Below the pieces are notes generated by a model, which had not been told where the DNA came from, made no database searches, and saw only the letters and a program-made list of their open reading frames with translations. Positions 2,090 to 24,274 of a stretch of 64,000 nucleotides of DNA are shown here, piece by piece. How positions within the stretch are numbered: position 1 is the stretch's first letter; each line of letters opens with the position of its first letter. This DNA is from Bacteroidales bacterium (GTDB lineage: Bacteria > Bacteroidota > Bacteroidia > Bacteroidales > UBA932): positions 1-64,000 of the forward strand of contig JAFXNQ010000041.1 in assembly GCA_017529425.1 (NCBI GenBank), in the 5' to 3' direction. The position numbers and the translations under genes were made by a program.

Positions 2090-5000
2090 TTAGTTCTTCT
2101 TGTAGAGGTAAACACCGTACTGACGGCCTGTACCTCCGATCTTAAATTTATCATCGGAGTTGAAGTACAAAACATCTTTTTTACCATCAGACTTCGTATA
2201 ATAGAAATAGAAGGCGTCAGAAACTGTACCATCTGTGCTGGCAGCAGCTTTGAGAGTAGCGGCATCGGTCAATGACATGGTCACCTTGCTTGAACTGACC
2301 TGGATATAGCGGCTGTAGGTAGTAGCGGAGTTTCCTGTTACATATCCCTCGGGGCCATCCAGAACATAGCTTTCGCCCTCTGCGGTGATAACAAATTCAC
2401 AACTGTCATAGTCACCTGTGATTGTTCCGCTGGTACCGTCAACCTCGACTGCACTTCCTGCCTGGTCACCGGCAAAAGCCATCTTCTGACCTTTACCATT
2501 GTAGTTATTTGCATCGGTGGACACAATCAGGTATGTAGCACCACTGGTAATCTCGGAGACCTTGGTGTAGGTTGCAGGTGCATTGTTCATGACTGTCAAA
2601 GTGTAAGATGCCTCACCTGCCTGGAGTTCAGAAGTGGCGGGGGCAGATGCCTTAACGGTGAAGACACCAGTACCGTTGATTGCCACTGCGCCTGCAGCAG
2701 ATACTGTAGGATATGCACTTGCTGCAACAGAAGCATCGGAGCATGTTACGCTGTAGGTAACGCCGTCGGTCTTGCCAGACAGGGTCGGAGCACCTGCAAA
2801 TGCATAAGGGAGAGTCTTACCATAGATGTTCACAGAAACTGCGCCCGTGCTGAATGCAAGGTTGCGCTTTTTGGGGCCGTTCTCCTGGAGCTTGTAAAGC
2901 TGGCAGTTAGCGCTGCTGGTCGAGCTCTGGAAATAACCCTGACTGGTCCAGCGCAGTTTATAACTGGTACCACTAACACGAGCTATAGTAGCTACGCCGC
3001 CAGAAGCAATGCTGATGTTGAGATTATGAGAAGATCCCTTTGTTTCCTCTGCTCCTATGTTGTTGCTTGTCGGATAGATATAACGGTTAGCCGATTCAAC
3101 AAAGAAGTAGTAACCAGTTTCAAGGGTAAGTTCGCAATCAACAAACTCGTCTGATACTATAGTGTGGTTCTCAATTGTAGCGCTCAATGCGTTAGCCGCA
3201 GCTTGAGTGAAGTTGCTGCCGTTCAATACCGGCTTGAACACTTTGCTGTTTGATTCGTTGACCAGCAGGTAATTGGCACCGACCTCAATATCAGCGCTAG
3301 ACTCTACCAATGCATATTCGGGTGTTACCGATTTGCTGTCTTCTACTACGACAGTGAAGTGTGCTTTTGCCTGTTTATAGGTGGCATCAGCCTCTGCAAT
3401 CGCGGTAATGACAGCGGTTGCATTCTTCTTAGCACCTTCTGCAATCGTAACGGTTACAGTTTCGTTATTGACCTTTGTAACTGTTGCGACGCTCTCATCG
3501 GATGATGTGAAGGTAACGGCAGTCTGGGCTCCGCTCAGGGTAGGAACGGCAGCTGTCCATGTGCTTGTACCCTTATCATACTTGGCAGTAGTGCTGCTGA
3601 AAGAAAGACTCTGCGGAGTGCGGCCGTCATACAGCTTATAGATGCAGATGTTGGCATTGTAATCGGTGCCCGCGGTTTGACCACTCTGCTGAATACCACT
3701 GAAGTAGTTTCTGGTAGACCAATAAATATGATAATTAGCGTCGTTAGAGCGGCCTACGGTAGCGATACCATCCGAATCAATGCTGATAGATACTGTATGG
3801 GAAGTGTTCTTAGCTTCTGCACCGAGGGCGGAGTCGCCAGAAGCGCCGGGATAGAGATACTTGCCGGCAGATTCAATCCAAAGGTATTTGCCCTCCTCGA
3901 AGGTAATCTGGCAATCAGTCAGATCGGCGGAGATGGTATTATCGGCAGTGTTGATCACAACATCCACGGCATTGTCGGTACTCTTGGTAAAGGCAGATCC
4001 AGAAGATGCAAGAATCGGTTTGAACGCCTTGGAAGCAGTCTCGTAAACCAGGATGTACTCACCGTCTTCTTCGATGTCATCATTAGAGAGGACCTTGGTG
4101 TAAACCGGGACGCTGGGGTCGCTGCTGGTAATGGTGATGGTGTAAGAAGCCTTTGCTGCCCTCCAGGTAGCATCCTTCTCTGCAGTTGCGGTAATCACCG
4201 CCTTGTCGCCCTTCTTGACACCTTCAGCAATGGTGACTTCACCGGTAGAAGCATCTACGGTAGCGACACTCTCGTCAGAAGATGAATAGGTTACGTCGGT
4301 TTCTGCACCGTTAAGGGTGGGAACACCTTTGCCTTCTTCCCAAGCACCTGCATATACATCGTAAGCAGCTTCGTCGGCAGAGAATGAAATGCTCTGGGCA
4401 GAGCGGCCGTCATTCAGCATATAGAGGCAGATGCCGGTAGAGTACTGACCGCTGATTGTAGCGTTGCTGCTGAAGTAGTGGCTGGAAACTGACCAAACGA
4501 AGTAGTTAGAGCCGGAGTTAGCCTTGATCTCTGCAATACCGTCTTCAAATGCAATATCCAGAGCGGTTGATGCAGTGCTCTCTGCATTGAGAGTACCACT
4601 TCCGCCGGATGTGCCAGTGGGATAAATATAATAATTGTCAGCACCAACAGCCTTGAAGAAGTAGCCCTCCTCAAGGGTAAGTTCACAATCAGCGAACTCA
4701 TCAGAAGTGATGACACCCTCATCGATAGTTACATCAAGTGCAGAGGATGCATCCTTGACATATTGAGTTTTACCAGAATTGAGAACCGGATAGAACACCT
4801 TGGGATCAGCGTCATCCTCATCACCTTCGAGGCCTTCGAATACCAACAGATAGTTGGCGCCGACCTCCAGGTCGCTGACTGAGGTAACCTTTACATACTG
4901 AGTTGCACCAACCGGAGCGGGAGTGCTGTCGGTAACGGTGAGGGTGTAGGTTGCAACAGCGCTCTGCCAAGTGTCGCTTGGAGCGGCTTTAGCAGTAATC

Positions 5001-6919
5001 ACAGCAACACCCTTCCCTAATACCTCTACTGCACCGTTTGCAGGATTGATGGTAGCAACGGCAGTATTGTCAATTGAGTAAGTGACATCGGTCTTTGCAC
5101 CGTCAGACACAGCCTGTCCGGTAAACGGAGCAGATGCATCGGTGTAAAGGTCATAAGAGACAGTCGGATTTGCAAAAGCAATCTCCTGAGGCATACGGGT
5201 GGTATAGAGAGCGGTAGCATCATAACCAGAAGAAGTAATCCTCCAGCCCTCGTTGTAATAAGCGTAGAAGTCGGTGACGGTGGACTCGTAAATGCTGGTG
5301 TTCCAGAAGTTGGTACCATCATAGTTCCATACCATATACTTGGTGAGGTCATCGCTTGAAGCCACAAGCTGATAGCTGCCGCTGTCGCTGAGGCGGGTCA
5401 GGTTGTAGCTGCCCTGGCTGAAGCTGTGGGTACCATAATCTGCAAGGGAGGCATCAATAGCCGCTGCTGTCCAAAGGAGACCTTCAACAGGTTCAAGAGA
5501 AGCGGTGCCCGCTTCTGAATCAACAGTCACTGCCACTTCGCTGAGGCTCCCGCTTGACAGGCGGAGGGCATTAGCTGCAGATACGATCATATAGTCATAT
5601 CCGTCATCGATGGCGCTGGCCTTGTAGTAAGTCACCTCGGGAGCGCTGTTTGTAACAGTGAGCTTATATGATGCGGAAGATGACATATACTGGTGTCCGT
5701 CACCGGAAGCGGTTGCAGTGATGGTAGTTTCACCTGCAATGCCAGTAAGGGTAACGTTACCGGACTCATCCACGGTAGCTACATCTGTGTTGCTGGAGCT
5801 ATAGGTTATGGTACCTGCGCTTTCTTTGTCAGCGATGTACAGAGTGGGTGCTACAGAGCCAAAGTCGGCCGCGGAATTGGTATAGACGTCATATTCAAAC
5901 TCAGTGACGGGCTGGCCATAAGCATCATCGTATTCCATCTCAAGAGGTTCACGGTCAACGCGTGTAACATTGCCGCCCACGGTCATATCCATGGCTATGT
6001 TGATGAACTCGCTGGCATAGAAGGTAAGAGAAGCAGGGGTAGTAAAACTCTTTGTGTAGATATATTTGTCGGTAACTACCTCTACACTCTTGATACTCTT
6101 GGTACCGGGGACGGTAACCATATATACATAAGTGGTTGCAGACCTTTTCAGACCATCCGGATAGCTCAAAGTGAGCTCGTAGGAGTCAGCGTTGGCCTGG
6201 AAATCAGCGGTATTGGTCTCAAAATCCACGTCAGCATAACCAACTTCACCGGTGATGATACCGTTATAATCCCTGGTATTCTCCACGCAGCTGATCTTCA
6301 CACTCTCTACATAGCTGCCTGCCAGGTTGGTGACAGCCAGACGGGAGAGAGCGACGGGACGTGAGAAATCGAGGAAGACCCTCTGCTCGTGAAGGGATGA
6401 AGAGTAAGTGTTGGGGCACGTACCAATCAAGAAGTCAGCCTTGGGGTCAATCAGGGACTCTACGTGAGGATACTGTACTGCAGGCACCAGGTACTTGTCG
6501 TTCTCGCGGGTCGCCATGAGGGCGGTGTATGCGAAGGTCGATCCGGCCTTGGTGAGTGCGGACGGAGGGTTGACGATAACGGTTGCGTTGTCAAACTCGG
6601 CATAGAAATATGCCTTCTCCCAAGTACCGTCCACAGGGGTAGTCATCTCCACCTTGCTTGCCTCCATGAAGTAGGCATTGCCGGAAGATGCGGTCTCGGT
6701 TTCAAAGATGTGGACATCATTGACATCGGTGTTTCTCCAGTCGGGGACCATTTTAAGCATAATGGCTGTCTTGGTCTCGTCGGCAGAGGGTGCCTTAGCC
6801 ATGAAAGTCACGGTGTGGGTCTTTTCCTTCTGTTCAAAGTTCTCAGCGGGCTTGTTGCAGGCTGCCACCCCCACGATTGCCAATGCACAGAAAAGTGCTG
6901 AAATTATATTCTTTTTCAT
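2090..6919 (-). CDS. Large surface lipoprotein with fimbrillin-like N-terminus and Ig-like (Big_2) repeats
   Basis: A 1609-aa protein. I chose the start at 6919 (MKKNIIS...) because it begins a lipoprotein signal peptide with a cysteine at about residue 21 (VGVAAC); the frame is open further upstream but only runs into the preceding gene. Residues about 25-320 resemble fimbrillin-like/Mfa-type proteins. After that, Big_2-like Ig modules (TYSSSNTDVATVD and close variants) alternate about four times with a 150-200-residue beta-rich module containing YLLV and YIYP motifs, ending in a KIGG...YGVYLY segment. No C-terminal sorting domain is evident. It is the last gene of a four-gene minus-strand operon and starts 16 bases after the 63-aa peptide gene. 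A cell-surface adhesin or matrix role is inferred. Confidence 0.85.
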   Translation of the reverse strand: MKKNIISALFCALAIVGVAACNKPAENFEQKEKTHTVTFMAKAPSADETKTAIMLKMVPDWRNTDVNDVHIFETETASSGNAYFMEASKVEMTTPVDGTWEKAYFYAEFDNATVIVNPPSALTKAGSTFAYTALMATRENDKYLVPAVQYPHVESLIDPKADFLIGTCPNTYSSSLHEQRVFLDFSRPVALSRLAVTNLAGSYVESVKISCVENTRDYNGIITGEVGYADVDFETNTADFQANADSYELTLSYPDGLKRSATTYVYMVTVPGTKSIKSVEVVTDKYIYTKSFTTPASLTFYASEFINIAMDMTVGGNVTRVDREPLEMEYDDAYGQPVTEFEYDVYTNSAADFGSVAPTLYIADKESAGTITYSSSNTDVATVDESGNVTLTGIAGETTITATASGDGHQYMSSSASYKLTVTNSAPEVTYYKASAIDDGYDYMIVSAANALRLSSGSLSEVAVTVDSEAGTASLEPVEGLLWTAAAIDASLADYGTHSFSQGSYNLTRLSDSGSYQLVASSDDLTKYMVWNYDGTNFWNTSIYESTVTDFYAYYNEGWRITSSGYDATALYTTRMPQEIAFANPTVSYDLYTDASAPFTGQAVSDGAKTDVTYSIDNTAVATINPANGAVEVLGKGVAVITAKAAPSDTWQSAVATYTLTVTDSTPAPVGATQYVKVTSVSDLEVGANYLLVFEGLEGDEDDADPKVFYPVLNSGKTQYVKDASSALDVTIDEGVITSDEFADCELTLEEGYFFKAVGADNYYIYPTGTSGGSGTLNAESTASTALDIAFEDGIAEIKANSGSNYFVWSVSSHYFSSNATISGQYSTGICLYMLNDGRSAQSISFSADEAAYDVYAGAWEEGKGVPTLNGAETDVTYSSSDESVATVDASTGEVTIAEGVKKGDKAVITATAEKDATWRAAKASYTITITSSDPSVPVYTKVLSNDDIEEDGEYILVYETASKAFKPILASSGSAFTKSTDNAVDVVINTADNTISADLTDCQITFEEGKYLWIESAGKYLYPGASGDSALGAEAKNTSHTVSISIDSDGIATVGRSNDANYHIYWSTRNYFSGIQQSGQTAGTDYNANICIYKLYDGRTPQSLSFSSTTAKYDKGTSTWTAAVPTLSGAQTAVTFTSSDESVATVTKVNNETVTVTIAEGAKKNATAVITAIAEADATYKQAKAHFTVVVEDSKSVTPEYALVESSADIEVGANYLLVNESNSKVFKPVLNGSNFTQAAANALSATIENHTIVSDEFVDCELTLETGYYFFVESANRYIYPTSNNIGAEETKGSSHNLNISIASGGVATIARVSGTSYKLRWTSQGYFQSSTSSANCQLYKLQENGPKKRNLAFSTGAVSVNIYGKTLPYAFAGAPTLSGKTDGVTYSVTCSDASVAASAYPTVSAAGAVAINGTGVFTVKASAPATSELQAGEASYTLTVMNNAPATYTKVSEITSGATYLIVSTDANNYNGKGQKMAFAGDQAGSAVEVDGTSGTITGDYDSCEFVITAEGESYVLDGPEGYVTGNSATTYSRYIQVSSSKVTMSLTDAATLKAAASTDGTVSDAFYFYYTKSDGKKDVLYFNSDDKFKIGGTGRQYGVYLYKKN

Positions 6920-6935
6920 ATGCTTGTAATAAATT

Positions 6936-7127
6936 CTAGTTGAGGAATTCATCGGCAGGAATGTCAAAAATAGAGTTGTCAAAGACGTCGAGTTCGCCGT
7001 CGTGACCGGGATCATACGGGATAGTTTCTCCCGCGTTACCAGACTGGCACACGATACCAGCCAGATTCACACTGACACATACAGAATCCGGAGATTCGTA
7101 CGGGGTAAAGTTATCTTGTTTTTTCAT
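6936..7127 (-). CDS. Small acidic protein (63 aa), partner of the Ig-repeat lipoprotein
   Basis: It encodes MKKQDNFTPYESPDSV... and ends in an acidic, Phe-containing tail (ELDVFDNSIFDIPADEF). It fits exactly between two giant genes with gaps of 12 and 16 bases, which supports a real translated gene. The pattern YE(S/A)P followed by hydrophobic residues, a glycine and a cysteine (YESPDSVCVSVNLAGIVC) is shared with the 77-aa protein at 12720-12953, which likewise precedes a giant lipoprotein. There is no signal peptide. I recall similar short peptides next to fimbrillin-like or Ig-like genes in gut Bacteroidales, but their function is unknown to me. Confidence 0.7.
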   Translation of the reverse strand: MKKQDNFTPYESPDSVCVSVNLAGIVCQSGNAGETIPYDPGHDGELDVFDNSIFDIPADEFLN

Positions 7128-7139
7128 AGCAAAAATATG

Positions 7140-10100
7140 TTACTCAAGCATATCGTTCTGGAACTGGGTAATCATGTCTCTGTCAACACCCAGCGTATTC
7201 ACAACATAATTGATAGCTTTCTCTTGCCAGGTGTTGCCGGAGGCGTTGTTGATCGCATTGTATACGGTATAGTACTGTTCAGGAGAACTGCCGTTACGTG
7301 CACGGAGGCCGACGGTAGAGAAAGAAGTCAACTCAAAGTCAATGTCGCACCTTTCGGGCGCAATACCAAGGAGGGATTCAAGGTACAGGCAGGTACCGCC
7401 TGTGCGGTCAGCACCAACCATACAGTGAATATATACATTGACACCATGGTGTACAGCATTCATGATTCGCATCAGGGTCGGACCCATCTTGTTCTTGTTT
7501 GTAAGGTCTGAGCCACCGCTATACTGCTCATTAGTATGGCCGGAATAGACATCTGGACTGTAAGTATTCTCCGCGATATTGGGAGACAAGTTGAGAGCGT
7601 TATTTATGGAGTTGCCGCTTCCACCCCAACCTCCTGAAGTACGGAGGTCAACGTCCAGACCGATCTTCATCTTATTCAGCAGATAGTTCTTCTGGTCGGA
7701 AGTGGTGTTGTCCATGTTACTGCCGCGGAAAATCTTGCCATACTTGATTGTCTTACCGCCATTTTCGGTCACCTGGCCACCGAGGTCACGGCAGTTGTTG
7801 GCATAGTTCTGACCAAAATTGGATTTTAAACCGATGCCCACCATGCGGCGGCGGCCTTCTGTTGCAAATGTACCAGAAGCAACTGTAGTACTGCCGTTCT
7901 TGGCAACCCAGTAGTATGTCCTGTTAGGAATAAGGTTGTAAATATCGGCTGTATTTGAGCTAACCTCAGCAACTGCCATTATTTCCTCGTCGGTGTGGGC
8001 CTGATCGTAATATACGGATACTGTAGTAGCCGATGATCCAGTCCAGCTCACTGTAGCCGGAGCCGGCCAGTCAAGACGATTGGTGGCGCTGACGTTGGTT
8101 GCATACTGGGAAGCGTACGATGTAGAACTGTGATTGCTCTTAGTGTAATTTGAGTACGCCTGATTGAAGAAACCGTTGACCGCAGAATTCTCTAGGTTGT
8201 AAACACCCTCCTGGGAGATACGGTTGATGTACAGGGTATAAGATGCGGAACCAGAGTAATACTCGTCGTTACCTGCTGCTGTACCAGTGATAGTGGTGCT
8301 GCCAAAGCCCCTGACGGTGATGGTAGTTCCAGAAATCGTAGCAACGTTGGTGTTGGAGGATGAGTAAGTGATATTACCATAACCACCCTGGAGCGTCTGG
8401 ACACTCATTATACCGCTTGCACTCTCCATAGTCTGGGTAATGGAACCCTGGGAGAAGTAAGGAGACTGAACCTTCTTGCTGCTGCCGCTGGAGGTCTTGA
8501 GGTAGAGGTGAACGCCGACGCCGACGCCGCTGCCGCCAATCTTGAACGTATCCGCACCGGTGCCGCCCATTGAGGAGGGTTTATAATAGAGGACCTCACT
8601 GGTAGAAGAGGAGTTCCTCTGGGCGGTCATAAATTCGAACCTCTCACCGGAAACAGTCAGGCTGTACAGATACTCGGATGAAGGTTGAGAACTTTCAAAT
8701 ACGAGACCTGTGGTGCTGTTGCCGCTGTTGGAGTAGTCACAGAGCAGATATCTGCCATCATTGAATCTTATGCAATACTTGCTGCCGCTCTGTGTTACAG
8801 TGAACTCATAGCCGCTATAAGCGTTGTTCGCAGAGGTGATTACACCACTTGCCGCATTGATGCTGACATAAGAACCGTCGGCAGCACCCTTGAACAGTCT
8901 GGTGTCGTCAACAGAGGTAATCAGATAGGTCCCACCTACTGTCAGGGAAGTAGCCTTCACATAGGTAGCGTCACCGGTAGAAGGTGTAGAAGAGGCCTCG
9001 TTAACAACCAGTGTATAAGACTGGGAAGCAGCGTTGTAGTTGCCCGCTGCAGCCGCGTTGGCGGTGATGGTAGTCTGGCCTGCACCCTTGATAGTGATGG
9101 TAGTACCGGAAACGGTAGCCACGTTGGTGTTGGAAGAGGTGTAAGTAACAGTGGTCTGTGCACCGCTTACCTGCTGAACAGACAAGGTCGAGCCCGCAGG
9201 ATAATTGTTCATTGAAACGGTCACTGTGGGCTGCGAGAACGAGAGATTCTGGTTCACCTTGCCAGAAGAGGAACCGCCTTCAGAGGTAAGCTTATAGAGA
9301 CGGATGTTGGATACCTGATAAGCACGCATCGAGAAGCCCTGTGCAGAACCTGAGTGATAGAAATAGTAGCTGCCGGAGTATATACCCAGGCCGTTTCCGC
9401 TGCTGGTGCCACCCCAGGAACTGCCACTGCCACTACCGCTGCCAATGGAGAATGCAGTTGCAGAAGACTCGGAAGTAGTATAAGTGATCCTGTTATCAGT
9501 TGTAGGAACAACAAGATACTGACCGGTACTCTTAACCTTGATCTTCCAGTTGGAGCCGGAAGCGATGAGTTCTACCTCTGCATTGAATATCTCACTGTCG
9601 TTTGTGAAAGTGAGGGTATTGCTTGAATCAATGTCCCTCTGGCCAATATACTGGCCATTGCTAACGTAACCCTGACTGCTATCCCAGTCACCGTTGAGAA
9701 CAGTAGGGAACAGAGCGATTGAATACTGGCTGCCGGATGACTCATAGCCGCCAAGCAGGTAGGTACCTGCAGATACACTTGTCTGATATGTGTAGGTACG
9801 GGATGTGCTTGAAGAGCTGGAACCGGAAGAAGTAATGGTCAGAGTGTAAGACTGCGATGCAGGGTTGTAGTTGTCATTACCCACTGCGTTGGCAGTGATT
9901 GTAGTGGTACCTGCGCCGACGATAACCAGCTGGCTGCCGTTTACAGTAGCAACATTGGTGTTGCTGGAGCTGTAGGTTACAGTTGTCCAGGCACCGCTTA
10001 CAGACTGAACAGAGTAAGAGTTGCCAATCGAGTAACCGTTGTCAAGCGACCAGGTAACGCTGGGGCTTGCAAAGGAAAGTGTCTGGTTCTGCTTGCTGGG

Positions 10101-12695
10101 GTTCACGGGAGTGCTGCCGCCGCCGTTCTGCAGTTTGTAGAGCTGCACGCGACGGTCGCTTGCGCTGGAGCTGGAATACTGGAATGCACCGCTCACATAT
10201 CCCAGATAATACTTATTGTAACCATTGGAATGGCCGGAGCTTACTACCTGTACACCGCCATTGGAATACTTGAAAGCGTGATAGTAGTTTGTTGCGGAAG
10301 AGCTGTAACTGCTGGTGCGGCTATTGGTAGAATTGATCTGCAACTCGCTGTTGGAGTAGAAGACGTACATACCGTCGCTGTTCTTCACATTGTATGCCTC
10401 CTGGCCCGACAGGTTAGCGTGCTCTACGCCTGCGTCAGAGACTGTGAGGGCATATTTATCAACAGTAGCGTTAGAAACAATCTGGCCGTTGCTGATTGTA
10501 ACATCCACTGCATAGCTGCTTGCGTTGCTGCTGAAAGCTGCAAATGCCTTGCTGCTGCTCTCGTCAACAAAGAGGTAAGTACCGTCCCAGCTTGTGGGCT
10601 CGGAGGTAACCTTAACATATGCTGCATCACCACTCGGAGTGGGAGTCGAGCCGTCGCTGATAACCAGGGTGTAGCTCTTGGAAGCTGCATAGTAATTGTC
10701 GTTCTCAGCTGCATTTGCAGTGATGGTGGTGGTACCTGCACCCACAATCACGACGTTGGTACCGGAGATGGTAGCAACATTGGTGTTGGAAGATGTGTAG
10801 GTAACGGTGGTCTGTGCGCCGCTTACGGCCTGAACTGCATAAGAGTTGCCTGCGGTGTAACCGTTACCCAGGGTCCACTGGATGCTGCTCTGTGCAAACG
10901 AGAGGTTCTGGTTCTGCTTGGTTGCGGAACCGCCGTTACTCAGTTTGTAGAGCTGCAGGCGACGGTCGGTATCGCTGGTGGCTACGCTGCTGCCGCCGGA
11001 GTAGTTGAAAGAGCCGCTGGTGTAACCCAGATAATACCTGTAAGAGCCGCTGCTCTGGACGGCACTTGCAACCTGCACGCCGCCGTTAGAATACTTGAAC
11101 ACGCTGTAATAAGTGTTCATGGAGCTGCTGCTCTGGCTGCTGGCCTTCTGGTTGGTAGAGAGAATCTGTACCTCAGAGCTGGAGCCAAAGATATACATAC
11201 CGTCGCTGTTGCGCAGGTTGTATGCCCTCTGGCCTGAGAAATTGGAGTTCTCATGATCTACACCTGCGTCGGTCACAGTGAACGCATATTTATTAACATT
11301 GGAGTTAGCCACAATCTGGCCGTTGCTGATTGTAACGCTCAATGCATAGTTGCTTGCATTGTCGCTGAACGCAGCGAATGCCATACTGCTGCTCTCATCC
11401 ACGATGAGGTAAGTGCCGTCCCAGCTTGTGGGCTCGGAGGTAACCTTCATGTAAGCTGCTTCTCCGCTGGGGGTAGAAGACTGGGAAACAACCAGAGTGT
11501 AAGACTTGGTTGCAGCATTATATATATCGTTTGACGGAGCGTTTGCGGTGATGGTGGTGCTACCTGCGCCAACAATCTGGATGGTTGTACCGGAGATGGT
11601 AGCCACATTGGTGTTGGAAGATGTGTAGGTAACGGTGGTACGTGCGCCGCTGACAGGCTGTACGTCATAAGTATTTCCAATGGAATAGCCGTTGCCCAGC
11701 TGCCATGTTACGGTAGATTGAGCAAAGGAGAGCTCCTGATCTTCCTTCTCGGGATCTACAGGTGTAGGATTATCTTCCGGAGTGGGATCGGTGCTGTGGT
11801 CAGCATCAAAGCTGAGGTTGAAGGTATATGTCTTACCAGCGTTGATCTTGGTATCGCTGGCACGCTCAAACAGGTGATAGAAAACAACCTCGTTGTTGTT
11901 GGCGTCGGTTGCGATAACCTTAGCCTTCACGCTGCCGCCTGCAGGGATGGTGAAGGGGACAACGCCTGCATAAAACTGCTCGACGTCACCGGCTGCAATT
12001 TCATCGGCGTCGTTAACGGTGAGGAGAACCCTCTTGGTTGCGCCTTTTTCTGCCTCCCAGTTGATGTTGTCATAAGTAATATCGCCCACAAAATCACCTG
12101 CAATCTCGCTGGATGCGGTGAATTCTATGCTCTTGACCACGATGGGACCGCTGGTGGTGTTGGTCACCTTATAGTCGAGACGCGCCAGGACGTTACGCAT
12201 ACGGACGCTGAGCTGCTCCGAACGGGAAACACCCAGCTCCTTACCTACCAGGGGGAAGCCGTCGCCGGCGATGTGGGTCATATCACTGTTACCGGTCTGA
12301 ACCTGAGTCGCAGGGATAGAGATGTGAGTCTGCTGCGGAGTCTTGTTGTCGTCGCGGTGAGGATAAATCATGTACCAGTCGTTGACATCACCGGAGTAAC
12401 TCAAACGACCGCCAAAAGTGTTGTTGCCCCTGTAAGTCAGGTGGCCTGAAACATAGCTCTCTGCACCATCCTCAATGTTGATGGCGGTAAGTTGGTCACT
12501 TTCAGACCATAATGTGGCCGAACCGTTATTGACGGTCTTGGTAACGACGCCGTCTTCTGTAGTGACATAACATAGTAACTCCTCAGCGAAGAGACCTTCC
12601 TGAGGAGCTTCTTCCCGTACGGCTGTACAAGAACAGACACCACAAAGTCCTGCAATCAGGACCCCTACGGTAGCTAATGAGAAAGTTTTTTTCAT
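7140..12695 (-). CDS. Fimbrillin-like/Ig-repeat lipoprotein with C-terminal tyrosine-phosphatase domain
   Basis: An 1851-aa protein. Residues 1-24 form a lipoprotein signal peptide (Cys near residue 23). Residues about 30-300 look like a fimbrillin/Mfa-like domain (VRMRNVLARLDYKV). Five Big_2 Ig-like repeats start near residues 318, 593, 870, 1148 and 1408, each with the SSNTNVATISG signature; they alternate with modules of the type KVTSEPTSWDGTYL. A fibronectin-III-like domain spans about 1495-1611. Residues 1613-1851 form a protein tyrosine/serine phosphatase domain: NNCRDLGGQ, then RGSNM, then LDVDLRT, and the catalytic P-loop HCMVGADRTG with Cys1758 and Arg1764 (CX5R). The phosphatase is thus predicted outside the cell on a long stalk. 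Its substrate is unknown. Confidence 0.85.
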   Translation of the reverse strand: MKKTFSLATVGVLIAGLCGVCSCTAVREEAPQEGLFAEELLCYVTTEDGVVTKTVNNGSATLWSESDQLTAINIEDGAESYVSGHLTYRGNNTFGGRLSYSGDVNDWYMIYPHRDDNKTPQQTHISIPATQVQTGNSDMTHIAGDGFPLVGKELGVSRSEQLSVRMRNVLARLDYKVTNTTSGPIVVKSIEFTASSEIAGDFVGDITYDNINWEAEKGATKRVLLTVNDADEIAAGDVEQFYAGVVPFTIPAGGSVKAKVIATDANNNEVVFYHLFERASDTKINAGKTYTFNLSFDADHSTDPTPEDNPTPVDPEKEDQELSFAQSTVTWQLGNGYSIGNTYDVQPVSGARTTVTYTSSNTNVATISGTTIQIVGAGSTTITANAPSNDIYNAATKSYTLVVSQSSTPSGEAAYMKVTSEPTSWDGTYLIVDESSSMAFAAFSDNASNYALSVTISNGQIVANSNVNKYAFTVTDAGVDHENSNFSGQRAYNLRNSDGMYIFGSSSEVQILSTNQKASSQSSSSMNTYYSVFKYSNGGVQVASAVQSSGSYRYYLGYTSGSFNYSGGSSVATSDTDRRLQLYKLSNGGSATKQNQNLSFAQSSIQWTLGNGYTAGNSYAVQAVSGAQTTVTYTSSNTNVATISGTNVVIVGAGTTTITANAAENDNYYAASKSYTLVISDGSTPTPSGDAAYVKVTSEPTSWDGTYLFVDESSSKAFAAFSSNASSYAVDVTISNGQIVSNATVDKYALTVSDAGVEHANLSGQEAYNVKNSDGMYVFYSNSELQINSTNSRTSSYSSSATNYYHAFKYSNGGVQVVSSGHSNGYNKYYLGYVSGAFQYSSSSASDRRVQLYKLQNGGGSTPVNPSKQNQTLSFASPSVTWSLDNGYSIGNSYSVQSVSGAWTTVTYSSSNTNVATVNGSQLVIVGAGTTTITANAVGNDNYNPASQSYTLTITSSGSSSSSTSRTYTYQTSVSAGTYLLGGYESSGSQYSIALFPTVLNGDWDSSQGYVSNGQYIGQRDIDSSNTLTFTNDSEIFNAEVELIASGSNWKIKVKSTGQYLVVPTTDNRITYTTSESSATAFSIGSGSGSGSSWGGTSSGNGLGIYSGSYYFYHSGSAQGFSMRAYQVSNIRLYKLTSEGGSSSGKVNQNLSFSQPTVTVSMNNYPAGSTLSVQQVSGAQTTVTYTSSNTNVATVSGTTITIKGAGQTTITANAAAAGNYNAASQSYTLVVNEASSTPSTGDATYVKATSLTVGGTYLITSVDDTRLFKGAADGSYVSINAASGVITSANNAYSGYEFTVTQSGSKYCIRFNDGRYLLCDYSNSGNSTTGLVFESSQPSSEYLYSLTVSGERFEFMTAQRNSSSTSEVLYYKPSSMGGTGADTFKIGGSGVGVGVHLYLKTSSGSSKKVQSPYFSQGSITQTMESASGIMSVQTLQGGYGNITYSSSNTNVATISGTTITVRGFGSTTITGTAAGNDEYYSGSASYTLYINRISQEGVYNLENSAVNGFFNQAYSNYTKSNHSSTSYASQYATNVSATNRLDWPAPATVSWTGSSATTVSVYYDQAHTDEEIMAVAEVSSNTADIYNLIPNRTYYWVAKNGSTTVASGTFATEGRRRMVGIGLKSNFGQNYANNCRDLGGQVTENGGKTIKYGKIFRGSNMDNTTSDQKNYLLNKMKIGLDVDLRTSGGWGGSGNSINNALNLSPNIAENTYSPDVYSGHTNEQYSGGSDLTNKNKMGPTLMRIMNAVHHGVNVYIHCMVGADRTGGTCLYLESLLGIAPERCDIDFELTSFSTVGLRARNGSSPEQYYTVYNAINNASGNTWQEKAINYVVNTLGVDRDMITQFQNDMLE

Positions 12696-12719: not shown

Positions 12720-12953
12720 TTAATTGTTTTCAGAAGCGCCAACAAGAACAAAATCGGAACCGGTAACATCAAAACCATCAACAGGACCTTCAAAGGGGGA
12801 GCTGAAATCGCCACCATGCTGCCAGGAAATGATGTCCTGCATCAAAGAGCCTTTACAGTCAATAGCTATCAATTCAGAAGCCGGAGCCTCATATAGACAC
12901 TCGGAATGTTTCGATATGTTTCGCTTTAACATTTCTTGCTTTGTGTCCGCCAT
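12720..12953 (-). CDS. Small protein (77 aa) heading the surface-protein operon
   Basis: It encodes MADTKQEMLKRN... and lies 24 bases upstream of the giant phosphatase lipoprotein in the same orientation. The middle, CLYEAPASELIAIDCKGSLM, matches the YE(A/S)P...V/I...G pattern of the 63-aa protein at 6936-7127. The C-terminus is acidic and Gly/Ser-rich. It has no signal peptide or known domain that I recognise. The repeated pairing of a small peptide with a giant lipoprotein argues for a linked function such as export, assembly or regulation, which is inference only. Confidence 0.65.
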   Translation of the reverse strand: MADTKQEMLKRNISKHSECLYEAPASELIAIDCKGSLMQDIISWQHGGDFSSPFEGPVDGFDVTGSDFVLVGASENN

Positions 12954-16138: not shown

Positions 16139-17365
16139 ATGAAAATAGCAGTAGCAGGTACCGGATATGTGGGCATGAGCATCGCCACGCTCCTTGCCCA
16201 GCGCAATCACGTCGTCGCGGTGGACGTCATTGCAGACAAAGTCGATAAGATTAACAACCGCGTCTCACCCATCGCAGATGATTACATAGAGCGCTTTCTG
16301 GCAGAGAAACAACTTGACCTCAAAGCCACTACCGATGCGTCGGCCGCTTATGCCGACGCCGACTTTGTGGTAATCGCCACCCCCACCAACTATGACCCGC
16401 AGAAGAACTTCTTTGACACCAGCCATGTAGATGAGGTCATCAAACTGGTGATGGAGGTCAACCCCAGCGCCACCATGGTAATCAAGAGTACCGTACCTGT
16501 GGGCTTTACCAAGTCTGTAAGCAAACGTTTCTCAGAGGCGCGCATCCTCTTCTCCCCCGAGTTTCTGCGGGAGAGCAAAGCCCTTTACGACAACCTCTAC
16601 CCTTCCCGCATCATCGTGGGGTGCGACAGCGACGAGTTGAAGGAGGCAGCAGAGGCTTTTGCCACCCTGCTCAGGAATGCCGCCATCAAAGAAGATATCC
16701 CCGTCCTGTATATGGGCACCACGGAGGCCGAGGCGGTGAAGCTGTTTGCCAACACATACCTTGCGCTCCGGGTGAGCTATTTCAACGAACTTGATACCTA
16801 TGCCGAGATGAAAGGGCTCGACACCCGCTCCATCATAGAGGGAGTATGCCTTGACCCCCGCATCGGCAGCCACTATAACAACCCCAGCTTCGGTTACGGA
16901 GGATACTGCCTCCCAAAAGACACCAAGCAGCTGCTGGCCAACTACAACGATGTGCCTGAGAACATAATAGGGGCCATCGTGGCGAGCAACCGCACCAGGA
17001 AGGATTATATCGCAGACCGGGTGCTGGCAAAAGCCGGCTATTACAGCGCCAACAGCATCTGGGATTCCGCCCGTGAACATGAGGTCACCGTGGGGGTATT
17101 CCGCCTGACCATGAAAACCGGCAGCGACAACTTCCGCCAGAGCGCCATCCAGGGCATCATGAAGCGCATCAAGGCTAAGGGAGCGACGGTTATCGTATAC
17201 GAGCCCACCCTCCCCGACGGCTCAACCTTCTTTGGCAGCGCCGTGATAAACGACCTTGCGGCCTTCAAATCAAAGGCAGACGCCATAATCGCCAACCGCT
17301 GCGACCCTGCCCTGTCCGATGTAATGGACAAGGTATATACGAGGGATATATTCAAAAGAGATTAG
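16139..17365 (+). CDS. ugd: UDP-glucose 6-dehydrogenase
   Basis: A 408-aa NAD-dependent enzyme that oxidises UDP-glucose to UDP-glucuronate in the cytoplasm, feeding capsule or LPS sugars. The N-terminal Rossmann motif is [11 protein letters not shown] (residues 4-14). The hinge region FSPEFLRE and the catalytic motif [12 protein letters not shown] with Cys257 are present. The short form (about 390-410 aa) is typical of this branch. The product fits the UDP-glucuronate 4-epimerase encoded at 22847-24049. Its last four bases overlap the end of the convergent sugar-phosphate transferase gene. A strong promoter lies directly upstream. Confidence 0.95.
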
Positions 17366-18576
17366 TCCAAAGACTCTCCGTCAGAACACGAACCGCCCAG
17401 AAAACGGCTGTCCATAGCCGCACGGATGGCTTTCCACCACCTGGTGCCGATAAGGTTGGTGTTGTGTGCGTGACGGTACCAGAGCTGATATACCGCACTC
17501 CCCTCGCCACCCTTCTTATTCTTCTGGGCAATTGTCAAAAAATAGAATCCCTGGAGCAAAAGTCCCATTGCAATCACCACATAAGCCTGCAAATCAATAG
17601 AGGCGCCCAGGAGCCAGGAGACCAGGGTAACGGCGACAATAAAGAAGTTTATGACAAGAATCGAACCCGAGGTGGCCAGATGGGAATACCCCAGGTCAAT
17701 ATACATATGGTGCAGGTGAGTCTTGTCCGGGCGGAAGGGAGACCTCCCGCGCACAATCCTGTAAACCATCACCTTCAAGGTGTCAAAAACCGGCACTGCC
17801 AGAATGGCAAGGCAAATAGCAGGGAGCGACAGTCCCATATCTTCATAAACTGCACAAGGGGCTCCTGAAGTCAGGGCGCGGAACACAAATATGGTGAGCA
17901 GAGTGCCCAACATCAGGCTCCCGCCATCGCCCAGGAACATCTTGGAACGTACGCCAAAAACATTGTGGAGGAAAAACGGCAGCAGGGCTCCTACGGCAAA
18001 AAGAGCCGCGCTGAACATTGCATAGTCCCCGGCATGATAAAACAGGATGGCAAAAGCGATGCTGGCCATCATTCCAAAAGAAGAGCAATAGCCATCCACT
18101 CCGTCGATAAGGTTCACCGAATTGATGATGCCCACTCCCGCCACTATAGAGAGCGGAATACTTACGTAATCCGGGATAGAATGAAGCCCCCACAAACCGT
18201 GGAAATCATTTATCCCGATACCCAGAAGCGGGATCATTATCCATACCAGAAGTGACTCCAGCAAAAACCTCAACACAGGGGAGGTATCCTTTAAATCGTC
18301 CCAAAGGCCAATGGCATATATGGCTGTGAGCAGCAGCAAAAACCATAACAACTTGATGTCGCCGACTATGGCAAATTCTATCAAGCTCACAACCGTAAAG
18401 CCGATAAACACTACGGCCCCACCCATTATCGGCACCGGTACACGCTGCAACTTGCGGGCGTTGGGATTATCTACAATGTTGTGCTTTCGCGCAAAAGATA
18501 AAACCACCGGATACACCAGCATAGTTACCACAAAGGCAACCGACATCAGAATATATACTGTTTGGGTTAATGCCAT
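17362..18576 (-). CDS. Undecaprenyl-phosphate sugar-1-phosphate transferase (WecA/MraY family)
   Basis: A 404-aa polytopic membrane protein with about ten hydrophobic helices. Family motifs are GLWDDLKD (Mg-binding aspartates), [20 protein letters not shown] and the HLHH loop. This family transfers a HexNAc-1-phosphate from UDP-sugar onto undecaprenyl phosphate at the inner membrane, starting O-antigen, capsule or teichoic-type glycans. It lies head to tail (2 bases) with the nucleotidyltransferase-like gene upstream, in a minus-strand cluster of polysaccharide genes. A 5'-truncated family relative is present at 38590-39249. Sugar specificity cannot be read from the sequence. Confidence 0.9.
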
Positions 18577-18578
18577 CC

Positions 18579-19604
18579 CTACTTATTGAAAGTCCTCCAC
18601 CACTTATGCCACCTCTTCCAGGGACGGATCCAGAAGACCTCACCGGGATAGTGCCAGAACAGGCGGCGCTCGTGGTCGCGCGACCTGGATTTGCGCAGGC
18701 TGCCGGAGGTGTGGTGAGTGCCGGGCCTTGCATTCTCCTCCAGGAAGAAGGTGCCCTCCTTTTTATCGGGCTTGCAAAGCAGCATCTCGTCCGGTGCGCC
18801 GCAAACATCCTTCATCACCCACATAATCGCCCCGGCAAACTTGGCGATGCCAATCCGCCTTATCTGCTTCATGACCCACTCGCGCTCATCTGCTTTCAGC
18901 GCCTTGAGAATGTAGAAATAATCGATAATATGACGAATTCCGCTCCCCTCAGAGAGGAAGTGGCGGAATATATGTGACAAGGCATAAACCGCATTAAACC
19001 GTGCTGATGGATAAGCAATACCCAACGACTCATCCACCTCCATCTGAGCGGCCATATTTCTGTCAAAGAACCTCTGGAGAGGGCGGTTATGAGAGGGCTT
19101 GTAAAGCCATGTCGGGTGAAAATGGACGTCAGAACTCAAATCAGGGGGCAACACTGCGTGGACATTGTGCCACATGATATGCCCTACCCGACCCTCAGCT
19201 GTCATCCATTTCATCGCCTCTTTCCTGGAGCCGGCCAACCATAAATCCACATCCCCGCACTTTCTCCATGCCGGGTCGGGATATAGCTGGGCAATACCCA
19301 CACCCTTAAGCACACAACATTTAAATCCGGCTTCACGGAACCTTTCAGATAGCTCACGGGCACGCTTCAAATGGTGATTATACATAGCCTCGGCATTATG
19401 CCTCGACTCCAACCAATGCTGCCAGGCCGCCTCAGACGGCTTCTGCTCCTCCGGGAGTTTCTCAATCCCGTAAGAGAGAACCGCGGCCACAGACTTATGC
19501 CGGGCCTCATTTAACAGCGCAGTCCATTCATGCAAAGCAGGCACCCGCGACAACTTGTTACGCGTACCAAGGGATACCTTAAGCAGTTCGTTAAACAGAC
19601 TCAT
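18579..19604 (-). CDS. Nucleotidyltransferase family protein (NTP_transf_5 type), copy 1
   Basis: A 341-aa protein with the nucleotidyltransferase-fold motif CCVLKGVGIAQLYPDP followed by RKCGDVDLWL (residues about 95-123), where the aspartates of GDVDLWL would bind metal. An all-helical C-terminal half contains SHIFRHFLSEGSGIRHIIDYF. The family is found in Bacteroidetes polysaccharide loci and its substrate is not established. Two further members in this window (37233-38324 intact, 49818-50474 truncated) share the LKG...P.H/R...D(I/V/M)D signature. It ends 2 bases before the WecA-type gene, so the two are probably co-transcribed. Confidence 0.8.
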   Translation of the reverse strand: MSLFNELLKVSLGTRNKLSRVPALHEWTALLNEARHKSVAAVLSYGIEKLPEEQKPSEAAWQHWLESRHNAEAMYNHHLKRARELSERFREAGFKCCVLKGVGIAQLYPDPAWRKCGDVDLWLAGSRKEAMKWMTAEGRVGHIMWHNVHAVLPPDLSSDVHFHPTWLYKPSHNRPLQRFFDRNMAAQMEVDESLGIAYPSARFNAVYALSHIFRHFLSEGSGIRHIIDYFYILKALKADEREWVMKQIRRIGIAKFAGAIMWVMKDVCGAPDEMLLCKPDKKEGTFFLEENARPGTHHTSGSLRKSRSRDHERRLFWHYPGEVFWIRPWKRWHKWWRTFNK

Positions 19605-19663
19605 AGCAACATTATTCTTGAATCAGACGAGCAAAGGTAATCAATATGCTCAAGTATTCAAAA

Positions 19664-20641
19664 CTAAGATTTCCAGAGCGATTTCCAGAGGGGCAGCCGG
19701 CGGAACTCATCGGAGGCGACAAAACGTTTTGCATCTCTCAACCCCTTCAAAGAGGCCTTGAAGGGCAAAGTCCGCCTGCGCAGGGCGCATACCAGGGCAC
19801 TCATCAACGCAGTCCACAGCCAGGAACTGTAAAAAGCAAGGACCGACAATCCCTTTGCAAGCATAGATCCACGTGTCTGGAAAACAGACCTGTACCATAG
19901 GACGTACCTGATAAAAGAGATATCATGATAGTAGGCATCGCCTTTTGCGACATTGGACGTTTTGGCATCCTGGTGTATTATCCCGCTGGTAAAATGCATC
20001 AGAAGAGAATACCCTGCAACATACAGTTTATATGCAAGCAACTGGTCATCCCCAATTGGATAAGGGAATCGGTCCAACCAACACTCATCTTCCAGATTAA
20101 CCGATAAGAAAGCATCTTTCTTTGAAAGGAAGCACGGCCCGGCAAAGGACTGGGTAGGCATCACGCTCTTTGGCCTCAATGCATAACTGAAGCGGGAACT
20201 CAACCTTATCCTGACTGCGTACCTGCCGAATAATGAGGGGAGCGCCAGGGTATAAAGCGCTTTCATGATTATCTGTTTCAGTGAGTCTTTATGCTGTAGA
20301 AAAACCTTGGGGGACACACAGTCTGCTTTGTGTTTGGAGAGGGCCCCAAAAAGCTTTTGTACCGAGTCGGGCTGGAAATAGACATCATCATCACAGAAAA
20401 GGATGTAATCCGTATCAATCTCCTCATATCGCTGTGCCCGCTGGCGCATCATCCCCTTGGGGCATGTGATATATATCTCGTCTGCAATCTGTTCCGGCTG
20501 ACTGTATCCTTCCGCCAAATAGACAAAAATGGCTTTTGGGGGGTGAGTCTGCCCCTTGAGGCTCGTGATCATCTTCACAAACTTATCTCCCGCTTTACCC
20601 AGGGTACGGATAGCTACACAATAGTCAGGAAAACGATTCAA
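19664..20641 (-). CDS. Glycosyltransferase family 2
   Basis: A 325-aa GT-A enzyme. The N-terminal strand is YCVAIRTLGKAGDKF, followed by the acceptor-sugar segment KGMMRQRAQRYEEIDTDYIL and the metal-binding FCDDDVYFQPDSVQKL (residues about 82-97). A GPCFLSKKDAF segment and a DRFPYPIGDDQLLAYKL motif follow. Residues about 270-290 are hydrophobic and may anchor the C-terminus to the membrane. It overlaps the upstream capsular glycosyltransferase gene by 17 bases, indicating translational coupling. Predicted to add a sugar to a lipid-linked oligosaccharide at the cytoplasmic face. Donor and acceptor are unknown. Confidence 0.85.
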   Translation of the reverse strand: MNRFPDYCVAIRTLGKAGDKFVKMITSLKGQTHPPKAIFVYLAEGYSQPEQIADEIYITCPKGMMRQRAQRYEEIDTDYILFCDDDVYFQPDSVQKLFGALSKHKADCVSPKVFLQHKDSLKQIIMKALYTLALPSLFGRYAVRIRLSSRFSYALRPKSVMPTQSFAGPCFLSKKDAFLSVNLEDECWLDRFPYPIGDDQLLAYKLYVAGYSLLMHFTSGIIHQDAKTSNVAKGDAYYHDISFIRYVLWYRSVFQTRGSMLAKGLSVLAFYSSWLWTALMSALVCALRRRTLPFKASLKGLRDAKRFVASDEFRRLPLWKSLWKS

Positions 20642-21614
20642 AATTCAACAAATAATGATAATAGTTGCCCTGCCCCTTCTCTACCTGCTCCTTTACATTG
20701 TAGGATAACTTATGGAAGCACACATTTGAGATAAGGTTATCCCATTTTTCCTGGTTGAACTTATCCCCCCAGTGACGGCCCAGCTCCAGGCTCCTCGGAG
20801 CATAGCCATAAGGCATGGCGGCAATCTCACTGGGATATACCGACCTCAACATAGAGAAAAACTGATGGAAAATATAGTAATCCACCATACAGTCATAATC
20901 CTTCCAGTATGCAAATAACATATCCCTCAACACAAGCAGGACATCGTTATTAGTACAAGCGGTGATAAACCAGTTGCCAATACCGCCCCATCGGTTGCTG
21001 CCTGGCAGCGTGTATTGAAACATAAACAGGTCAGAGTCCAGGTAAGAGAGAGTTTCCTTCTCATTTTGCGGATACAGGCCCGTACACAGCACCGTAGAAT
21101 CAATCCAGGTACCACCGTGCCTGATGAGCAGCGACAGGCGGAGCAAGTCTGCAAAATGGGCCGGCGGGATTTGATGCTTGTTCCATCTATCCTCGATGTA
21201 ACCGGGCAGTTGCACATACTCTTGCCAATTGCGGCTATCCACAACCTTGACCTCCCAGTCCGGCAGATTCTTAACTATGGACGCATAGCAAACCTTCACC
21301 ATTTGAGGCGCCTGCTCCATCCCCTGCAGCCAGCAGAACCAGATAATCTTATGCGTCTCATGATACAGGTGCTGTTGAGCGTAATACTCCTTTCGCTCAT
21401 TCATCAGGGGGGCGTATTTAACAATCAGATGCCGCCCTACTATACGGGCAGCATCCTGATACGCACTCAAATAAGCCTGACGGCTAAAAGGATTCTTTAA
21501 TATCCCCCTCACCAACGGCCGCAATGCCCCCAGCCTGGCGTAGTGACGTACCACGCGTATACCGCCAAATTGCCTATAGCGTGAATAAACAATTTTGAGG
21601 AGCGTACGCGCCAT
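20625..21614 (-). CDS. Capsular polysaccharide synthesis glycosyltransferase (Caps_synth/GT32-like)
   Basis: A 329-aa protein. The motif PPAHFADLLRLSLLIRHGGTWIDSTVLCTG (split here as PPAHFADLLR and HGGTWIDSTV) is the DxD-like signature of capsular polysaccharide synthesis and GT32-type transferases. It is preceded by KIIWFCWLQGMEQAPQMV and CYASIVKNLPDWEV, which are also typical. There is no signal peptide. It sits upstream of and overlapping the GT2 gene, forming a two-gene glycosyltransferase unit. It probably transfers a hexose during surface polysaccharide assembly. Confidence 0.85.
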   Translation of the reverse strand: MARTLLKIVYSRYRQFGGIRVVRHYARLGALRPLVRGILKNPFSRQAYLSAYQDAARIVGRHLIVKYAPLMNERKEYYAQQHLYHETHKIIWFCWLQGMEQAPQMVKVCYASIVKNLPDWEVKVVDSRNWQEYVQLPGYIEDRWNKHQIPPAHFADLLRLSLLIRHGGTWIDSTVLCTGLYPQNEKETLSYLDSDLFMFQYTLPGSNRWGGIGNWFITACTNNDVLLVLRDMLFAYWKDYDCMVDYYIFHQFFSMLRSVYPSEIAAMPYGYAPRSLELGRHWGDKFNQEKWDNLISNVCFHKLSYNVKEQVEKGQGNYYHYLLNFESFS

Positions 21615-21642
21615 GCTAACTATAATGGATGCTTATTATCGC

Positions 21643-22827
21643 TTACAGCACCTTCACCTGCAACTTGGCGTATGCCCGCTCTACCTTCTCCAGCGCCTTC
21701 TCCACGCTCTCGTCGCGTGCCAGGAGCACGCCCATACGACGGTGCCCCTTAATGAACGGCTTCCCGAATATTCTGAGCTGGACGTCAGGCTCTGCGAGCA
21801 CCTCCTCCAGATTCTCGAATACGACCTCGGTTGTGTCGCCCTCCACCACAATGGCCTTGGATGCCGACGGGCCAAAGAAATTAACCTTGGGAATGGGCAG
21901 ACCAAGGACGGCGCGGGCGTGCAGGGCAAACTCGGAGAGATCCTGAGAAATCATAGTCACCATGCCTGTATCATGCGGACGGGGCGATACTTCGCTAAAG
22001 AGCACCTGCTCACCGCAGACAAACATCTCCACGCCAAAGATTCCGTAACCGCCCAGGGCGTCGGTAATCTTTTTGGCTATATCCTGCGCCTGCTTCAAGG
22101 CCTTCTCGCTCATGGGCTGCGCCTGCCAGGACTCGCGGTAGTCGCCATCCACCTGATGGTGGCCTATGGGATTCAGGAAAGTGGTACCGCCACAGTGGCG
22201 AACGGTAAGCAGGGTTATTTCATAGTCAAACTTCACAAAGCCCTCCACAATCACCTCTCCGGCACCGGCACGGCCACCCTCCTGGGCGATATTCCAGGAT
22301 CTGTCGGCATCGGAGGGCGTCTTGCAGACGCTTTGCCCGTGGCCGGAAGAACTCATGATGGGTTTCACCACGCAGGGGGTGCCAACCTCCTTGATGGCGG
22401 CGTCAAACTCCTCGCGGCTAGCGGCAAAACGGTAGTTGGATGTGGGCAGCCCCAGGGTCTCATGCGCCAGCTGGCGGATCCCCTTGCGGTTCATGGTCAG
22501 GAAGGTGGCATTGGCTGTAGGTATCACATTATACCCCTCCTTCTCCAACTCCACCAGCGTGGGGGTAGCGATGGCCTCCACCTCTGGAATAATCAGATCG
22601 GGCCTCTCCTTCTCTATGATTTCGCGAAGCCTGGCACCGTCCAGCATGGACAGAACATAGCTGCGATGAGCCACCTGCATCGCCGGGGCGTTCTCGTACC
22701 TGTCAAGGGCCACAACCTCAACCCCATAACGCTGCAACTCTATTGCAACCTCTTTTCCCAGTTCTCCCGAACCGCACAACAGTGCTTTCTTTGCCACTTT
22801 AGTAAGTGGAGTTCCTATCTTTACCAT
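21643..22827 (-). CDS. purT: Formate-dependent phosphoribosylglycinamide formyltransferase
   Basis: A 394-aa ATP-grasp enzyme of purine biosynthesis that uses formate and ATP to formylate GAR in the cytoplasm. It begins [20 protein letters not shown] with GSGELGKE, then [19 protein letters not shown] and PEVEAIAT. The ATP-grasp glycine loop is [13 protein letters not shown], and later motifs are VEMFVCGE and [13 protein letters not shown]. The length fits the family (about 390 aa). It is a housekeeping gene placed among polysaccharide genes and 19 bases downstream of the epimerase gene, so it may share that transcript. Confidence 0.95.
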
Positions 22828-22846
22828 ATCTATTTCTTTTTGTTTG

Positions 22847-24049: not shown

Positions 24050-24274
24050 CTTTGCAAATATAACCAATCTTGGCATATATTACCGCCTCGTTGATGAATT
24101 AATCCATCCTCTCCCATTCAACCATCAAAGGGCTGAGCGGTGCCCGACTCAGTCTAGTGTACCACCTCCAGTGGGGCTATCGAAAGAAACTGCCGATGGT
24201 CTTCCTCCTCCTGCTTTTCATCAGATACTTCTGCCCCGATGGAGCCGACATCTTTAAGGCATTCACGTTGGTCC

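Follow-up and report, generated by a model that had tools for sequence, protein, structure and literature searches.

What might a phosphatase do at the far end of a predicted surface lipoprotein of 1851 residues? The question is raised by an open reading frame at 7140..12695 on the minus strand of the window, the 64,000-nucleotide stretch of DNA analysed here, which comes from an uncultured Bacteroidales bacterium of rumen type. The frame starts with ATG and encodes a multidomain protein that the initial annotation had described as an extracellular tyrosine phosphatase on an Ig-repeat, fimbrillin-like lipoprotein. The single long frame was confirmed by the ORF call and the five Big_2 repeats by Pfam (five stretches of the protein, E 2.6e-9). 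The architecture is real and lies far beyond chance, since orthologues of 1884 and 1587 residues occupy the same locus in two congeners (genomes G020 and G323) and the dN/dS of the head is about 0.15-0.25.

Domain organisation of the lipoprotein

The chain consists of a base, four Big_2–trefoil pairs, a fifth Big_2 repeat, an FN3 domain and a terminal PTP-superfamily domain. All features given below lie on the minus strand. A type II signal peptide (12627..12695) with the lipobox V-C-S-C23 is followed by TAVREE and by a putative Mfa/fimbrillin-like region (residues 24-305, 11781..12626). The first four Big_2 repeats, assigned by Pfam with approximate limits, span residues about 318-405 (11481..11744), 593-680 (10656..10919), 868-955 (9831..10094) and 1148-1235 (8991..9254). 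The fifth covers residues about 1408-1485 (8241..8474), with the best Pfam stretch at 1430-1473. An NCBIfam search of the whole protein returned nothing useful.

The FN3-like domain (residues about 1486-1625, 7821..8240) is packed against the phosphatase in the model of the FN3-PTP module. Its presence had already been proposed, and the proposal is borne out by the module profile, which matches human fibronectin chains (1fnf) at E 1.9e-5, with no single stretch passing alone. A single-sequence Pfam search of the window protein gave no FN3 match.

The head belongs to the PF13350 family

The phosphatase domain (7143..7820) is identified by Pfam, profile, model, Foldseek and motifs. Y_phosphatase3 (PF13350) matches residues 1632-1849 at E 9.8e-19, with 68.7 bits against a cut-off of 22.2. 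The head carries NNCRDLGG at 1633, LDVDLRT at 1680 and the P-loop HC1758MVGAD1763R1764, which begins with His1757; CX5R with a catalytic Asp in the P-loop is thus present (Cys1758, Asp1763, Arg1764). Cys, Asp and Arg (C277, D282 and R283 of the module) are invariant in an alignment of 40 relatives, as are the P-loop His and Gly and the motifs NxRDxGG and R-G. The initial annotation had predicted a large lipoprotein that ends in a seemingly intact PTP-superfamily domain, and the motifs are indeed found at the positions it gave.

The model of the FN3-PTP module has a pLDDT of 90 and a pTM of 0.90. In Foldseek, a Clostridioides difficile PTP (8dhj, E 6e-9) and MptpB (1ywf, E 7e-6) are the sole matches with E <= 0.001, and the module profile matches MptpB at E 5.5e-12. 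The intact motifs suggest that the head is catalytically competent, and the dN/dS of the PTP part (0.15-0.25) speaks for a functioning enzyme. An intact loop is not a given among such proteins: four Bacteroides sequences lack the catalytic Asp (PMC3091653), and the related locus L044 has the loop ECGTGNNR, in which the Asp is missing. Divergent P-loops were also seen in L128 (G323:C38; HCAGGCDR) and L042 (G008:C67; NCSAGRDR, His replaced by Asn), and these enzymes are possibly altered.

The name tyrosine phosphatase is a family label, as promiscuous MptpB-type enzymes are the protein's nearest characterised relatives and Ala stands in place of the P-loop Lys. The motif HCXXGKDR, with a catalytic Asp and a Lys that helps to bind phosphoinositides, defines the group of Beresford et al. 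(PMC3091653). With HCMVGADR, the window protein lacks this MptpB lipid-phosphatase signature. Extracellular relatives carry A, R, S or C in place of the Lys; the profile scan of the contigs of species genomes required A or R at this site and gave a biased set, and the FN3-PTP proteins of the other genome search, which had no such filter, also lack the Lys. At E<=1, the window protein has no Pfam match to the classical PTP family PF00102 or to the PTP-phytase family, the latter result not excluding phytase activity.

Three characterised or solved proteins come closest to the head. The MptpB group of atypical lipid phosphatases (Beresford et al. 2010, PMC3091653; PDB 1ywf) shares the Pfam family, the P-loop Asp before Arg and the status of a secreted enzyme. 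The window protein differs in lacking the Lys and in being a lipoprotein with FN3, Big_2 and trefoil domains for which host-cell entry is not known. Pho16B, a PTP with phytase activity from a soil metagenome (PMC6409689), also belongs to PF13350, has a signal peptide and is an extracellular organophosphatase, as the window protein may be. In contrast, it is a 38 kDa single-domain protein with HCXXGKDR and has neither an array nor a lipid anchor. The C. difficile PTP (8dhi/8dhj) is the best structural and sequence match, but its solved chain of 249 residues bears no array; a literature search on PDB 8DHI found no usable paper on its function.

The shaft contains beta-trefoil repeats

Self-comparison of the phosphatase lipoprotein and the neighbouring lipoprotein revealed nine copies of a domain of ~160-170 residues, four in the former and five in the latter. 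In the phosphatase protein these are R1 (residues 413-589, 10929..11459; repeat HMM E 2e-48, its fold assigned via homology to R4), R2 (691-859, 10119..10625) and R3 (966-1141, 9273..9800), both found by the repeat HMM, and R4 (1243-1404, 8484..8969), the modelled copy. The AlphaFold2 model from the repeat alignment has a pLDDT of 88.1, a pTM of 0.87 and an all-beta pattern. Its top structural match is the lectin 1w3a_A (VIA Z 12.9, rmsd 2.6, 132 aligned residues). Nearly all structural matches, with VIA Z from 12.9 down to 11.5 and a Foldseek E of 1e-3, are beta-trefoils; ricin-B-type lectins from fungi and clostridia rank first, together with CBM13-like portions of glycosidases.

By this model the repeat is a beta-trefoil closest to ricin-B-type lectins, and it may bind sugars. 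The sequence profile matches lectins in the PDB weakly (best E 0.005), and a Pfam search with 28 repeats at E<=1 gave no lectin family and no convincing family match. The fold also occurs in non-lectins such as FGF, fascin and the IP3 receptor. About half of the shaft is made of the four lectin-fold units alternating with Big_2. The description of the shaft as an Ig-repeat stalk was therefore correct for the Big_2 repeats but overlooked the four trefoils between them.

Against the whole genome, the trefoil profile finds these nine copies only, so the phosphatase and partner genes form a dedicated unit.

Lipid anchor and predicted location

The lipobox VCS-C23, recognised by inspection and pattern only, is conserved in both orthologues and present in nearly all congeneric relatives of the phosphatase lipoprotein. 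The TAVREE stretch after Cys23 bears only a loose resemblance to known export signals, a point against surface display. The fimbrillin-like nature of the N-terminus stands on indirect grounds: the window's own segment has no Pfam match to Mfa_like_1 (PF13149), even at E<=10, but PTP-lipoprotein paralogues from the same genus and genome do match (L028 with 28.2 and L045 with 28.4 bits, cut-off 27), and hhalign links the window's N-terminal group to them (95.9% probability, E 5e-9). Bacteroidales fimbrillin-like surface lipoproteins share the lipobox and probably the Mfa-like N-terminal domain; in the window protein this putative domain scores below the Pfam threshold and would form the base of an enzyme-tipped array.

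The lipoprotein most likely has its anchor in the outer membrane and is displayed on the cell surface, in line with the display proposed in the initial annotation. An exposed tip is suggested by the distal modules, which vary between species whereas the proximal part does not, by the signal peptides of relatives, and by the T9SS-like C-terminal tails of those in Prevotellaceae-type rumen MAGs.

FN3-PTP proteins are widespread in gut Bacteroidales

Four PF13350 genes are present in this genome, with open frames of 430, 642, 692 and 1859 codons. In an order-wide sample, 73 of 295 genomes have a PF13350 match, and frames other than those of this genome reach 521 codons at most. Within the genus, matches occur in 18 of 26 genomes and include two further long frames (1918 and 1599 codons) and a 905-codon frame. 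At least 528 relatives were found when 84,980 species genomes were scanned, and 79 loci were retained from them. These loci lie in MAGs, chiefly from the guts of ruminants and horses, and nearly all are Bacteroidales. Among rumen bacteria the module occurs in 1-6 copies per genome.

The proteins of the 79 loci range from about 370 to 2140 residues and include lipoproteins as well as secreted proteins: lipoboxes are found in relatives from the window's lineage, and standard signal peptides in those from Prevotellaceae-type MAGs. Many large Prevotellaceae-type relatives end in a T9SS-like tail, a call that reflects our reading of the motif GxxxxxxxxGxYIVNGKKxxVK; the NCBIfam model for such tails gave no match in the large relatives. 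In L072, L076, L108 (1711 and 1324 residues) and L052, two large FN3-PTP genes stand in tandem, which suggests local duplication. L067 contains a GH42-like stretch that lies under the Pfam cut-off and has a weak PDB match (E 8e-5), and it was left out of the argument.

The fusion had been called unusual, and a literature search for secreted FN3-PTP proteins in Bacteroidetes found no paper describing the architecture. FN3-PTP on large extracellular proteins is nevertheless widespread in gut Bacteroidales, and the fusion of PTP with Big_2 is not unique, as it recurs in L059, L063, L106 and L114. The head thus belongs to a large family of phosphatases secreted by gut bacteria that seems not to have been described.

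A phosphodiester glycosidase domain in one clade

Nine loci (L077, L086, L094, L096, L099, L101, L103, L107 and L117) encode a NAGPA domain (PF09992; E 2.8e-29 in L077) and FN3-PTP on one chain, in secreted proteins of ~1400-1470 residues from rumen Bacteroidaceae and Prevotellaceae. In a tenth locus (L080), the PTP ORF comes immediately after a NAGPA ORF. NAGPA frees sugars held in phosphodiester linkage (PMC12419801), so that a phosphomonoester would remain for the PTP head.

These giants share the extracellular FN3-PTP module with the window protein, but differ in their GRDR P-loop, T9SS-like tail and own phosphodiester-glycosidase domain. They show no match to the trefoil repeat HMM, and no published name for them was found in the literature. 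Together with close unfused members they form one clade (13 rows, 100/99) far from that of the window protein, which makes a transfer of substrate uncertain and the NAGPA argument a lead. The NAGPA gene of this genome is a separate one of 353 residues on another contig (C31), near no PTP gene.

Proposed function

We give a probability of roughly 0.5 to the reading that the protein is a surface lipoprotein with a lectin-like array and a competent PTP-superfamily head, serving as an extracellular phosphomonoesterase for phosphorylated glycans or small organophosphates. From membrane to tip, the fimbrillin-like base would carry the four Big_2/beta-trefoil pairs, the fifth Big_2 repeat, FN3 as a spacer and the MptpB-like PF13350 phosphatase. 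The trefoils may bind glycans or a surface rich in them, with avidity arising from several weak sites, and once bound would keep the head close to phosphorylated glycans or small organophosphates. The head would then strip phosphate monoesters via a cysteinyl-phosphate intermediate, with Cys1758 as the putative nucleophile, Arg1764 binding the phosphate and Asp1763 acting as acid/base. The purpose could be nutrient or phosphate scavenging, or glycan remodelling. An extracellular organophosphatase is plausible given the promiscuity of Pho16B, which was active on all ten phosphoesters tested, including glucose-6-phosphate and phytate (PMC6409689). Between the substrates first suggested, the phosphoglycan option fits better than phosphotyrosine, as related heads are fused to a phosphodiester glycosidase.

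It is rather unlikely that the protein is a phosphate-scavenging organophosphatase or phytase of the rumen or gut lumen whose array serves only for reaching beyond the capsule or for attachment to plant particles. The origin of most relatives in ruminant and horse gut would suit this role, and secreted Pho16B splits phytate with about 30% of the activity seen on its preferred substrate (PMC6409689). However, the annotated stretch contains no Pho-type or phytase neighbourhood, and Arg is the only basic residue of the P-loop, a feature that in this family accompanies low activity toward inositides with several phosphates (PMC3091653).

A displayed protein-tyrosine phosphatase acting on host or microbial phosphoproteins, in a signalling or virulence-like role, is improbable. 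Phosphotyrosine is scarce on extracellular proteins, the fusion partners of the relatives are glycan-type, and the module occurs widely among rumen bacteria, for which no path into host cells is known. The PTP catalytic core is intact, and two PF13350 members, MptpB and Lmo1800 of Listeria, act on phosphotyrosine peptides (PMC3091653). Neither the pTyr-binding motif nor the WPD loop known from classical PTPs is present in the family, however (PMC3091653).

When PTP-superfamily enzymes are secreted, they are mostly discussed in the context of virulence, as factors directed at host signalling. Here, many rumen and gut commensals are predicted to display related enzymes extracellularly on glycan-type scaffolds, in one clade with a phosphodiester glycosidase on the same chain. 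If these are glycan or organophosphate phosphatases, they would point to an overlooked step in the gut breakdown of phosphorylated glycans.

A conserved gene pair with variable heads

The partner gene (2090..6919, minus strand) encodes a lipoprotein of 1609 residues that starts with MKKNII and contains Big_2 repeats and five trefoils, but no phosphatase (Pfam, repeat HMM); it is probably a co-displayed binder. The order GlmM - NamZ - partner - PTP - HerA - OmpA - sugar-nucleotide dehydrogenase is kept in G020 and G323. In a further genome (G009) the locus reads GlmM - NamZ - PTP - HerA, with a short PTP lipoprotein, no partner and no trefoil array. Capsule/exopolysaccharide-type genes (UDP-sugar dehydrogenase, GT4, GT2, Caps_synth and epimerase) adjoin the locus at 16139-24076.

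The two parts of the phosphatase gene have diverged to different extents. For flanking genes, dS between the window and its sisters is 0.33-0.84 (0.32-0.90 including the G020-G323 pair), and bootstrap medians are similar for the N-terminal 300 residues (0.42-0.61) and for the last trefoil with Big_2 (0.64-0.71). The PTP part reaches about 1.3-1.6 (bootstrap medians 1.34-1.50), and a divergence step is seen at about residue 1490 in sliding identity. Bootstrap 95% ranges are 0.32-0.99 for the base and shaft parts and 0.91-2.83 for the PTP part, overlapping slightly at the edges. Base, shaft and neighbours thus follow one dS clock while the head is older, and the heads look exchanged on a conserved shaft; as NG86 estimates approach saturation once they exceed 1 and the comparison covers only three species, this is suggestive rather than proven. 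A foreign donor was rejected, as the three heads group together (96/89). Their higher dS suggests old alleles of one subclade, exchanged among close relatives.

In the partner, dS is 0.43-0.94 for the base and mostly at least 1.3, with some exceptions, for the distal trefoils; the base is conserved and the distal trefoils vary strongly between species. We tentatively consider, as a minority possibility, that the lectin-array pair is inherited vertically and that the head and the partner's distal trefoils are replaced by recombination between species, each head serving its own phosphorylated glycan. If true, such an interchangeable-head device would constitute a new class of glycan phosphatases working outside the cell in gut Bacteroidales, together with or after phosphodiester glycosidases. 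The mosaic also offers a natural experiment on what selection acts on in such surface proteins.

The partner, with the same array and no enzyme, and the much greater divergence of heads than of stalks would both suit a protein that is mainly an adhesin, in which the trefoil/Big_2 array does the work and the PTP head is carried along in a weak or degenerate state. We consider this doubtful, since the head is under purifying selection with all catalytic residues retained, and the G009 gene keeps the head without the array, which makes the head the constant element. A periplasmic lipoprotein acting on the cell's own envelope, such as lipid-linked or capsule phosphates, is very unlikely in spite of the adjoining UDP-sugar dehydrogenase, GT4, Caps_synth and epimerase genes, as an array of about 1500 residues would fit the periplasm poorly, the distal variability suggests exposure, the NamZ, GlmM, HerA and OmpA neighbours are not capsule genes, and G009 keeps NamZ, GlmM and HerA beside its short form.

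Within the stalk, residues ~690-780 in the second trefoil unit are nearly identical at third codon positions to those of the G020 orthologue (L025), which is a sign of recent exchange or gene conversion. Each lipoprotein gene is directly preceded by a small minus-strand ORF: one of 77 codons upstream of the phosphatase gene (12720..12953; 57% conserved in G020 and G323) and one of 63 codons between the two lipoprotein genes, upstream of the partner (6936..7127; 89% and 59% conserved in G020 and G323). Both contain a Y-E-[AS]-P motif near the start, plus a Cys.
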